Shown here: piece by piece, positions 39,429 through 42,644 of the stretch | How positions within the stretch are numbered: position 1 is the first letter of the stretch | How the letters are laid out: each line of letters begins with the position of its first letter | Source: Deltaproteobacteria bacterium CG11_big_fil_rev_8_21_14_0_20_45_16 | GTDB lineage: Bacteria; Bdellovibrionota; UBA2394 | NCBI GenBank assembly: GCA_002787535.1 | Contig: PCXB01000004.1 | Span: forward strand, 1-64,000 | Reading direction: 5' to 3' | DNA length: 64,000 bases | Translations under genes and position numbers: made by a program | Notes under the pieces: model-generated | What the model was told of the DNA's origin: nothing | The model's input: the letters and a program-made list of their open reading frames with translations, nothing else | The model's database searches: none

Positions 39429-42400
39429 TTATTCCTTCCCAAAATAAGTCAGTAGCGCTCGAATCATACTCGCGCCATCCGTGCCAAGTTCGGCATATCC
39501 GATTTTCTTTGAATCTTCCTGGGATAAGGCTTTAAAGGCCTGGGATAAAACGGCCATCTCCCCGCGATACATTCCAAAAGCATCAATATGAGCGTATCCC
39601 ATATACTCGACTTGCTCAGCGAGTTTTCGGATCATCTCTACCGCCGCCTCAGTATTAAAATCATCTCCATCTGAAAAATTGAAAATATATCGATTATATT
39701 GTGACCGAGGAAAGCGCTTAAGAACTTCATCAGCTTTCTTATAACCCGAAACGGCTTCTGTTCCGCCCCCAGTGTTTTTTCTGTAATAATCCTTTTCGCT
39801 GAGTTCCTCAGCCTCCGTTCCATAGCCGATATAAACCAACTCAATATCATCGTAGACCTTGCGCAATAGCGCGGTGGTCAACTTGGCAAAAGTCTTCTCT
39901 ATCTTTCGCTTGTGCTCGTCCATGCTTCCCGACCGATCGGCTACAAACATAATAACCGCTTTCATAAAGGGCTTGGGGTGTTCTTCGCGACGATAAACAT
40001 GCAAATGCTCGGGTTTCATTCTTGAATAGCCCAACTCCAAAATATCTTGGGGATCCATTTCTTCGATGTCTTTGCCTTCCTCAATGGCCGCCGCCATACC
40101 TAGTCGAATGGCTTCTTGAGTAGTTTTGACAATATGAATTTCACCATCGCTTTTTCGAACCGAAGATTTTCTTTGATAGCGAATATCTTTGTTATTACCT
40201 TCGGTCTCTCTAATATTTTTGAGACTTAATTTTTGCAAGAGCGCTTCTAAAAATACTTCTGTGGGAATTTTGAAATCTGCGGGATTATCCTCACTTCCTT
40301 GCTCACCTCGACCTTGCCCTGCTTGAGTGCTCCCTTCTTCCTCTCCGGGCTCACCTTCCTCAGACTCCTCTCCTTGTTCCCCTTGGCCCTGGCCTTTCCC
40401 TTGAGGCTCAGGCTTCCAACTTTCGCCAGGCAAGTAAGGACCTTCACCCAACTCAAGATCTTCATCACGAAGCATTGGGAAATTCGAACTTTCTGGTTGC
40501 AAGTTCGAAGACCGCCCTAAGGCTTCTGCACCAAAGGCATCAAAAGGATTGGTCGCTAAATTTGCCCAGGAACGATCCGGCATACTCGTTGGCAATATCG
40601 AAGCACGCAAATTTCTTGCACGCTTATCCAATTGAAAGCTTGGAATGTCCGGCAAAACCTTAAGTCCAATGGACTTACCATCTGCCGAAATATTTATGGC
40701 TCGCTCTCCCTTAAGAGCTTCTTCCATAATTCGATGAAGCCGATGACTCATAAAGTTCATATACTCGATAATGGCTCGACTTGCTGAAGCGGCATGAAGG
40801 GCATGGTTTTCAGCCGAATCAACTCGGATATTATTGGCGCTCATTACTGCATCGATGTATTTTTGGAAATCCGCACGCATCGGCTCAATTACATAGCTAA
40901 GTTGAGAATTTGCGATGTATTCCTGCACACTGGAGTTTACAATTGACTTGATTTGTTCGGAGAGGGCTTGCTCGCCTTCTTCCACAATAAGTTCACCATT
41001 TGGCCGAACCGTTAGGCGTACGCGAAAGGTTTTAGCGAGATCTTCCATTCTTTCGATCGGAGGATAGGGCAGCTCTCCATAAAAACTTTCGAATTGTTTC
41101 CGCTTCACGGGGTCTTGAACAATGCTCAAGGGAACTTTTTCGTGAGCCATCCACAGACCCGAGCCAATCGTATCAAGAGTGACCGGTCTCTCTAGAATTT
41201 GCGCCAAGACATACAGTGTTGGGCCAATGGAAGCCGGATCCAAGGGAATATCAAGATAAGGATCGTGTCGGAGCAAAACTCGTCCGCTTTCGTTAAAATC
41301 AACGATTTCAATTCGAGCCTGTTTCAGATCCGGGTTGGCCACTCGATGAGCAATCAAATCTGCAATACGTTCGGGATCACGAGTGATCGCTAGGTTTTTG
41401 GGCCCTGCCTGGGGATCATCAACTTCATTTGGCTTTTGTTTTCGATAGAGCAAAAGCCCATGACGCTCAACAAATTCATGATTATAGGCCAGGCGCAACA
41501 AACTATAATCCGTTAGCCCACTCTGCATCAAATCTCTTGCGTAGTCCGCGAACTGGCGATCTTGCTCCAACACACTTAGGCTCACAATTTCCGGACGCCT
41601 TAAGAATCTTTCGTATAAAATGAACCAAGCCTGAACACCCGTAAAATATGGACTCGATAAATCCGGTCGAGCAGCGACTCCTGCATTGATATTTCCAAAC
41701 TCAATCGCATTCGCCGGGGAATTATATTTACTGTGCTTGAGAATCAGATACTCAGAAAAAGTTGCCCAACCTTCATTAATAATTCTTCCATGATAGAAAA
41801 CAGGATCAAGCCGCCGCTTTCTCTCAAAAAGTTCGAGTAGTTCCGTCTTCCACGACGCTGCAGAAGACGGGAGATTATATACCAGCGCCTGCATGACGGA
41901 TCGCGTGGGAGCTAGGGGATGCCTCTGCTGAGTTTCGACGACCCTTTGGATGGGCTTTCCGTCGGCCCGCTCACTCTCTTGAAGACGCGCGCGTTGATTC
42001 ACGACCGAATTCTCATAACGCTCAGGCAAATCAATACTGCCACGTGAAAAATCCTGTAGACTCACAAGGCTTTGAAGCCATTGATAGTAACGAGTAACCT
42101 CCTCGTAGTCTTCCGTCTCGATCAACTCGCCCATTCGGTGCGCCAGCAGCGATGAATCAAAGATTCGATCCGGAGCTCGCTGTAACTTTAGAATAAAATG
42201 CTTATTAAAATCATAATGACCCGCGACATGGGATAAAACGATCAAAGTAGCTTCATCTGAACTTGTATCATTAAGATATTGAAGGTCCCGCGTATGACCC
42301 GCTTCGATAAATTCAAGGACGCTGGTTCCCATCGATGCCGCCTGAAGAATGGAGTAGCCATCTAACCAAAATGGCGCCGGATCGCCCAAACCGCCTATCA

Positions 42401-42644
42401 GACCAACCAGGGAGTTGGGAGTTAGTGATTGAATCATCATATCGGGAACTTGATAACCAAGTTGCGGTGCAATCCTATGGTAGATCTCCTGAGAAGCATC
42501 GGCATAGAACTCCATCCGATCAGAGTCTCGCCCACTTCCGTGGATAACAATTTTTGCTAAATCATGAGAACAGCGCCCGCCATTGTGAGCGTGCAACGTG
42601 ATCGGAGCTAAACAGGAAAAGAGCAATAAGCCTAAATTTCTCAT
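39429..42644 (-). CDS. exported SpoVR-like / DUF444 (YeaH-like, VWA) fusion protein
   Basis: Signal peptide MRNLGLLLFSCLAPITLHAH; SpoVR-like LIVLSHVAGHYDFNKHF and IINEGWATFSEYLILKHSKYNSP; C-terminal DUF444-like KAVIMFVADRSGSMDEHKRKIEKTFAKLTTALLRKVYDDIELVYIGYGTEAEELSEKDYYRKNTGGGTEAVSGYKKADEVL. Confidence 0.85.
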   Translation of the reverse strand: MRNLGLLLFSCLAPITLHAHNGGRCSHDLAKIVIHGSGRDSDRMEFYADASQEIYHRIAPQLGYQVPDMMIQSLTPNSLVGLIGGLGDPAPFWLDGYSILQAASMGTSVLEFIEAGHTRDLQYLNDTSSDEATLIVLSHVAGHYDFNKHFILKLQRAPDRIFDSSLLAHRMGELIETEDYEEVTRYYQWLQSLVSLQDFSRGSIDLPERYENSVVNQRARLQESERADGKPIQRVVETQQRHPLAPTRSVMQALVYNLPSSAASWKTELLELFERKRRLDPVFYHGRIINEGWATFSEYLILKHSKYNSPANAIEFGNINAGVAARPDLSSPYFTGVQAWFILYERFLRRPEIVSLSVLEQDRQFADYARDLMQSGLTDYSLLRLAYNHEFVERHGLLLYRKQKPNEVDDPQAGPKNLAITRDPERIADLIAHRVANPDLKQARIEIVDFNESGRVLLRHDPYLDIPLDPASIGPTLYVLAQILERPVTLDTIGSGLWMAHEKVPLSIVQDPVKRKQFESFYGELPYPPIERMEDLAKTFRVRLTVRPNGELIVEEGEQALSEQIKSIVNSSVQEYIANSQLSYVIEPMRADFQKYIDAVMSANNIRVDSAENHALHAASASRAIIEYMNFMSHRLHRIMEEALKGERAINISADGKSIGLKVLPDIPSFQLDKRARNLRASILPTSMPDRSWANLATNPFDAFGAEALGRSSNLQPESSNFPMLRDEDLELGEGPYLPGESWKPEPQGKGQGQGEQGEESEEGEPGEEEGSTQAGQGRGEQGSEDNPADFKIPTEVFLEALLQKLSLKNIRETEGNNKDIRYQRKSSVRKSDGEIHIVKTTQEAIRLGMAAAIEEGKDIEEMDPQDILELGYSRMKPEHLHVYRREEHPKPFMKAVIMFVADRSGSMDEHKRKIEKTFAKLTTALLRKVYDDIELVYIGYGTEAEELSEKDYYRKNTGGGTEAVSGYKKADEVLKRFPRSQYNRYIFNFSDGDDFNTEAAVEMIRKLAEQVEYMGYAHIDAFGMYRGEMAVLSQAFKALSQEDSKKIGYAELGTDGASMIRALLTYFGKE

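Follow-up and report, generated by a model that had tools for sequence, protein, structure and literature searches.

We describe a form of the PrkA-YeaH-SpoVR triad in Bdellovibrionota that appears to be exported, with SpoVR and DUF444 (YeaH) joined in one polypeptide and encoded beside a PrkA-like AAA+ protein and, usually, a giant propeller-AAA protein. The best reading of the set as a whole, to which we assign a probability of roughly 0.6, is an exported PrkA/propeller-AAA/SpoVR-YeaH machine. The triad is widespread and tied to starvation and sporulation, and its mechanism is obscure. In the window, the whole stretch of 64,000 nucleotides analysed here, the three genes lie on the minus strand with 4-bp overlaps, in the order PrkA-like, giant and, third, fusion. 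Their features are as follows.

50498..50506, minus: Shine-Dalgarno-like AGGAGGGGG before GTG 50490, seen in the sequence
48001..50490, minus: PrkA-like AAA+ protein, predicted to be exported, 829 aa from GTG 50490 (PF08298 and PF06798 over cut-off; PDB 9xip, E 2.3e-34)
50401..50403, minus: Cys30, the only Cys of the PrkA-like protein (CRAFL), invariant in 15 of 15 homologues
42641..48004, minus: giant protein, predicted to be exported, 1787 aa, with a putative signal peptide, a propeller-like part (~27-740), a degenerate AAA-like region (~770-1110) and a P-loop AAA+ region (from ~1140) (Walker A/B, sensor 1, Arg; low-confidence model and Foldseek)
42671..42673, minus: Cys1778 of the giant, close to its C-terminus (CDYLL); 13 of 14 giants have it, and the remaining one is cut by a contig end
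39429..42644, minus: SpoVR-DUF444 fusion gene, product predicted to be exported, 1071 aa (PF04293 and PF04285 over cut-off; 18 homologous fusions)
42585..42644, minus: probable signal peptide of the fusion (residues 1-20); the hydrophobic start is also found in homologous fusions and is lacking in canonical SpoVR and DUF444
42570..42572, minus: Cys25, sole Cys of the mature fusion, in a C-x-x-x-L motif; a Cys stands here in nearly all fusions with a complete start
41424..42272, minus: SpoVR domain by Pfam (PF04293, residues 125-407), with H139, H143 and E291 invariant columns in 19 fusions
40281..40394, minus: Gly/Gln/Glu-rich DUF444-type linker (~residues 751-788), read from the sequence; G751 invariant and G753 nearly so in 19 fusions
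39513..40001, minus: DUF444 VWA domain (residues 882-1044), with MIDAS D903-x-S-x-S and D992 (PF04285; Foldseek VWA fold; conservation)

A complete SpoVR and a complete DUF444 in one polypeptide

The fusion ORF (42644..39429, minus strand) starts with ATG and encodes 1071 aa with zero internal stops. A sequence-only reading of this DNA had proposed that SpoVR and DUF444/YeaH are fused here into one exported polypeptide, and all the motifs that it quoted are present in the ORF. It had made its case depend on a match to each family, and both were found over the Pfam cut-off of 27 bits: SpoVR (PF04293) at residues 125-407 (E 1.5e-10, 40.9 bits) and DUF444 (PF04285) at residues 882-1044 (E 1.3e-35, 123.7 bits). 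The search that it had suggested for other fusions of this architecture was also productive, with both families matched by 19 of the 19 fusions collected. When the fusion profile was aligned by HHalign with the canonical proteins of related genomes, it covered SpoVR over 1-510 of 510 template positions (E 2.7e-52) and DUF444 over 1-377 of 377 (E 2e-45); therefore, the N-terminal part of DUF444 is kept and no substantial piece of either family is absent. The fusion also has the DUF444 layout of an N-terminal part, a Gly-rich linker and a C-terminal VWA domain with a MIDAS.

The DUF444 part has moved some distance from its characterized relatives. NCBIfam spore_yhbH matched residues 749-1039 (E 3.4e-37) with 128.4 bits, short of its equivalog cut-off of 467.95, and identity with E. 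coli YeaH is 28% over the VWA half. Because the fusion falls below the NCBIfam YhbH/PRK05325 equivalog cut-off, its DUF444 part is, as judged by these scores, a divergent relative and not an orthologue. The predicted structure of the fusion is of moderate confidence (pLDDT 68, pTM 0.61). Its top Foldseek matches are VWA-type, the VWA part resembling solved VWA domains, and among them we saw no solved structure corresponding to the SpoVR part. Within the SpoVR part, HVAGH...INEGWA is reminiscent of the zinc site HEXXH...NEG found in M1-type peptidases, except that another residue stands in place of the catalytic Glu of HEXXH.

An assembly chimera or pseudogene is ruled out by intact ORFs on independent contigs, by their occurrence in many genera and by a dN/dS of 0.19. 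One genome (G051) carries a tandem second copy of the fusion gene immediately downstream of the first (L038:2-2383, minus strand), which has a Gly/Asp-rich linker and is cut by the contig end.

The operon and its distribution

Our survey set comprised 379 Bdellovibrionota genomes, most of which appear to be metagenome-assembled. The giant profile matched 27 of the 379 (24 genera) and the PrkA-like profile 29; the union of the two amounts to 31 genomes, about one in twelve, from 26 genera. The order PrkA-giant-fusion is kept in most genomes, and at one locus (L092) PrkA is divergently oriented. At two further loci (L099 and L102) PrkA lies beside the fusion and the giant is absent from anywhere in both genomes. 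Because these two genomes keep PrkA and the fusion without the giant, we regard PrkA and the fusion as the core of the set, and the giant as not essential to the complex. The named loci come from Bacteriovoracaceae, Bacteriovoracia, Bdellovibrionales and Bdellovibrionaceae, in addition to less specific titles. A profile scan of public contigs with a narrowed fusion alignment returned 8 loci, all informatively titled ones being of Bdellovibrionota type. Judging from these sequences, the exported set is likely confined to Bdellovibrionota.

Several neighbours deserve mention in their own right. In one genome (G294) an RCC1-repeat protein, a seven-bladed propeller, lies directly downstream of the fusion (L095:6623-8302, plus strand). 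In the window, the minus-strand ORF at 30686-36202 encodes an 1838-aa protein that begins like a lipoprotein (GLASC), contains an HEYGHH motif and matches a lactonase-type propeller (PF10282, E 1.5e-12). Tail-to-tail with the fusion lies a FliA/WhiG-like sigma factor (38402-39427, plus strand; FliA_WhiG, E 9.3e-35), in which a signal-peptide-like stretch, MGKFSYFLISVICVATYSELSFGC, precedes region 2. We considered this sigma factor as a member of the system and rejected it: the closest protein among 59 relatives is one weak match in G051 that leaves the start uncovered. Since there is no close homologue in these 59 relatives, the exported look of the sigma factor is uncorroborated.

The two AAA+ partners

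The PrkA-like protein passes the AAA_PrkA and PrkA C-terminal Pfam models with 30.5 and 32.4 bits (cut-off 25 each). Its family profile matches solved PrkA (9xip) at the E-value listed above, E. coli YeaG aligns with it over 593 columns (E 5e-20), and HHalign aligns it with canonical PrkA over 1-704 of 704 (E 2e-49). None of the MoxR family models exceeded its cut-off on this protein, only bpMoxR appearing at 13.3 bits against 27. The start is likely GTG 50490, which would yield the 829 aa with an N-terminal signal peptide; a start-site artefact is unlikely here given the Shine-Dalgarno-like sequence at this codon. Between two genomes of one genus the PrkA-like dN/dS is 0.19, and pN is far below pS in four further pairwise comparisons.

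The giant gave no family match over any cut-off, only generic AAA models below it; no MoxR family matched, and no Clp family model exceeded its cut-off. Its AAA region weakly matches ClpX, ClpC and Lon in the PDB. The P-loop, the DD of Walker B, the sensor-1 Asn and an Arg-finger candidate are conserved in 14 genomes, with single copies deviating within the P-loop. A model of residues 27-1137 is of low confidence (pLDDT 61) and mostly beta over ~27-740; its best Foldseek matches are multi-propeller proteins, and the ClpA ATPase is also among the matches. We assigned the ClpA match in this model to the alpha/beta segment that follows the propeller-like part, and the giant may accordingly be read as tandem propellers with a Clp-like AAA pair lacking a P-loop in its first module. 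That it is a duplicate of PrkA was considered and rejected, as HHalign found no giant-PrkA alignment.

In both AAA+ families, Walker A/B, sensor 1 and the Arg finger are kept with hardly an exception, and so is the MIDAS of the fusion. Because the catalytic residues are conserved, the AAA+ proteins probably use nucleotide; together with purifying selection, this conservation points to proteins that are maintained and that probably bind nucleotide or hydrolyse it.

Evidence for export

In nearly all genomes where the start can be read, members of all three families begin with charged residues followed by a hydrophobic core and a short c-region, and many of these starts have AxA-like cleavage sites; one PrkA-like copy (L091) requires a start further in to fit. 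By comparison, none of six canonical triad proteins has a signal-peptide-like start. The exported look that the sequence-only reading had ascribed to the fusion is thus shared by the homologous fusions and, beyond what it had noticed, by both partners. Of 53 members, 41 passed a strict signal-peptide rule, and by eye most of the remaining 12 are signal-peptide-like; the same rule accepted 17 of 43 flanking ORFs, some of them surely exported, and discriminates poorly alone. These statistics and those on motifs come from simple rules in which related sequences are weighted equally.

Other features point in the same direction. Net charge averages +1.1 to +1.4 ahead of the core and -0.6 to -1.8 behind it, which is the orientation of exported proteins; the uncharged cores have median lengths of 17.5-20 residues. 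The mature proteins hold little Cys (fusion 0.26%, PrkA-like 0.15%, giant 0.11%) relative to flanking ORFs (1.23%). A conserved Cys stands just past the signal peptide in the PrkA-like protein and the fusion, and near the C-terminus in the giant. It lies in a C-x-x-x-hydrophobic motif common to the three families, found in 38 of 46 cases against a background of 26% (binomial p 2e-15, uncorrected for relatedness). The triad of G182 is flanked by two AAA_2 (Clp-type) ATPases (L091:935-2203 and 15665-16993, both plus strand), each with a signal-peptide-like start and a Cys shortly after. The triad-bearing G077 has a like AAA_2 protein with such a start and Cys (L140:898-2679, minus strand), and triad-bearing G317 has another, interrupted by stop codons (L139:1345-2775, minus strand).

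Chance hydrophobic starts are unlikely because of the low Cys content, the conserved motif Cys, the charge bias and these further exported-looking Clp-like ATPases. A start-site artefact affecting all three proteins is also unlikely, since the hydrophobic N-termini recur across distant homologues. We therefore consider it very likely that all three proteins are exported across the inner membrane via N-terminal signal peptides. Because of its signal-peptide-like start, the fusion would belong to an exported SpoVR subfamily rather than to the canonical, cytoplasmic and signal-peptide-free one. Our literature search turned up no description of a SpoVR-DUF444 form, whether fused or exported.

A proposed machine and its rivals

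We propose that the PrkA-like protein, the giant and the fusion act extracytoplasmically as one complex, and the shared operon and export signals make such a complex likely in our view. The PrkA-like AAA+ ring would be the motor that supplies force, and the VWA (MIDAS) domain would couple the ring to a client, by analogy with the VWA co-chaperones of MoxR-type AAA+ proteins. The SpoVR domain, tethered in cis through the fusion and with HxxxH...E residues suggestive of a metal site, may bind or act on the client. The propeller-AAA giant could be a second unfoldase with the propeller as its substrate-recognition head, and disulfides formed by the lone conserved terminal Cys of each protein could hold the parts together or attach them to a common partner.

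The periplasm is not expected to contain ATP, and ATP-driven motors are not expected to work outside the cell. ATP-driven action outside the cytoplasm is accordingly the tentative element of the proposal, one that we lean slightly against, and the source of ATP is its least certain step. An invaded or lysed prey or host cell seems the most plausible; Bdellovibrionota is a phylum known for predatory bacteria, and prey- or host-derived ATP, which is a guess, would be consistent with them. We rejected an ATP/ADP translocase as the source, as there is no association with the triad across the phylum (2 of the 31 triad genomes have one, compared with 33 of the 348 other Bdellovibrionota genomes). 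At one locus in the phylum (L167, G076:C221:3-1418) an ATP/ADP translocase is matched very strongly (PF03219, E 3.9e-180), the phylum's other matches being far weaker.

The same difficulty over ATP speaks for a different view of the exported complex, as a structural, perhaps nucleotide-binding, envelope scaffold or regulator without ATP turnover. Here no ATP source is known outside the cytoplasm, no translocase goes with the triad, and one cytoplasmic PrkA is reported to have no detectable protease activity, a non-enzymatic role having been suggested for it (PMC13001217). However, the Walker A Lys, Walker B acidics, sensor-1 Asn and Arg finger are kept in both AAA+ families at 20-30% overall identity, which a mere scaffold would not need, and we consider a scaffold unlikely. 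The ATP problem would disappear altogether if the hydrophobic N-termini were membrane anchors and the bulk of each protein stayed in the cytoplasm as a membrane-tethered second copy of the triad, using ordinary ATP; cores of the observed median length would suffice for an anchor in some members. Against such tethering stand the average charge orientation, the AxA-like cleavage sites of many starts, and the Cys depletion with a conserved lone Cys, which fit an oxidising compartment, and these make it a rather improbable account.

The most conventional explanation is that SpoVR and YeaH of an ordinary cytoplasmic triad were joined for stoichiometry and replaced the usual genes. Both families are complete, and PrkA lies next to them as it does in the usual operon. 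Yet the source genome encodes an ordinary cytoplasmic triad elsewhere (L036), the other fusion-bearing genomes checked also have a canonical DUF444, and the fusion itself looks exported, is divergent and goes together with a giant that is foreign to the canonical operon. The co-occurrence of the canonical triad with the fusion in particular disfavours this explanation, which we regard as very improbable. The exported PrkA/propeller-AAA/SpoVR-YeaH machine remains our preferred reading.

A broader possibility, which we put forward as speculative, is a Bdellovibrionota extracytoplasmic AAA+ apparatus: several Sec-exported, catalytically intact ATPases (PrkA-like, propeller-Clp-like and ClpB-D2-like) with a common Cys terminal motif and a SpoVR-VWA adaptor, remodelling proteins with ATP from outside their own cytoplasm, for example that of prey or host. 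If true, it would be a new kind of bacterial machine; we looked in the literature for AAA+ proteins that are periplasmic or secreted and found none. If export is confirmed, intact AAA+ motors beyond the cytoplasm would challenge the view that ATP-driven remodelling ends at the inner membrane, and might reveal how predatory or host-associated bacteria exploit the ATP of their victims.

Comparison with known systems

The exported fused set is a new form of a known triad; whether it is also a new type of machine depends on its localisation and ATP use. As in the canonical system of PrkA (YeaG), DUF444 (YeaH/YhbH) and SpoVR (YcgB), all three families are present at full length in one operon, with PrkA beside DUF444/SpoVR. 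In contrast to it, the exported set has predicted signal peptides, carries SpoVR and DUF444 in one polypeptide, is nearly Cys-free save one terminal residue, and usually adds the giant propeller-AAA protein, which has no counterpart in the canonical operon. The sequence-only reading was right about the fusion; the PrkA-like partner, the giant, the predicted export of all the parts together and the genome's separate cytoplasmic triad had all escaped it. It had also described ycgB and yeaH as neighbouring genes, which does not hold in E. coli, where yeaH has yeaG as its neighbour and is followed by cdgI.

The fusion, by its domain content, supports a functional SpoVR-YeaH link. The sequence-only reading went further and took it as a Rosetta stone for a physical SpoVR-YeaH interaction; for a contact between E. 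coli YcgB and YeaH the argument would be indirect, because the fusion is a divergent, apparently exported paralogue. A YcgB-YeaH-YeaG link was earlier proposed from co-conservation of the triplet, and unpublished evidence reported in the same study points to a sensitivity to antimicrobial peptides in ycgB mutants as in yeaH mutants (PMC2375023). In B. anthracis, PrkA is required for sporulation and shows negligible protease and kinase activity in vitro (PMC13001217), and in B. bacteriovorus a separate-gene operon, bd0228-bd0231 (serine protein kinase, uncharacterised protein, SpoVR), is among the attack-phase genes (PMC5430801). A natural fusion inside a conserved operon suggests that the three parts of the triad work together, and it supplies constructs for purification.

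The giant recalls the ClpA/ClpB/ClpX unfoldases in that its AAA region weakly matches ClpX and ClpC and, in the model, the preceding region matches ClpA; it differs from them in its P-loop-less first AAA-like region, its large propeller-like N-terminal part and its predicted signal peptide. The exported set also resembles the MoxR AAA+/VWA pairs (NorQ-NorD, RavA-ViaA) and the MoxR-vWA ternary systems that include a beta-propeller, in that an AAA+ ATPase is encoded with a MIDAS VWA protein and a propeller-like part lies nearby, a likeness that we take as an analogy of working only. Here, however, the AAA+ partner is PrkA and not MoxR, the proteins are apparently exported, and the propeller-like part sits on an AAA+ protein instead of on the VWA protein.
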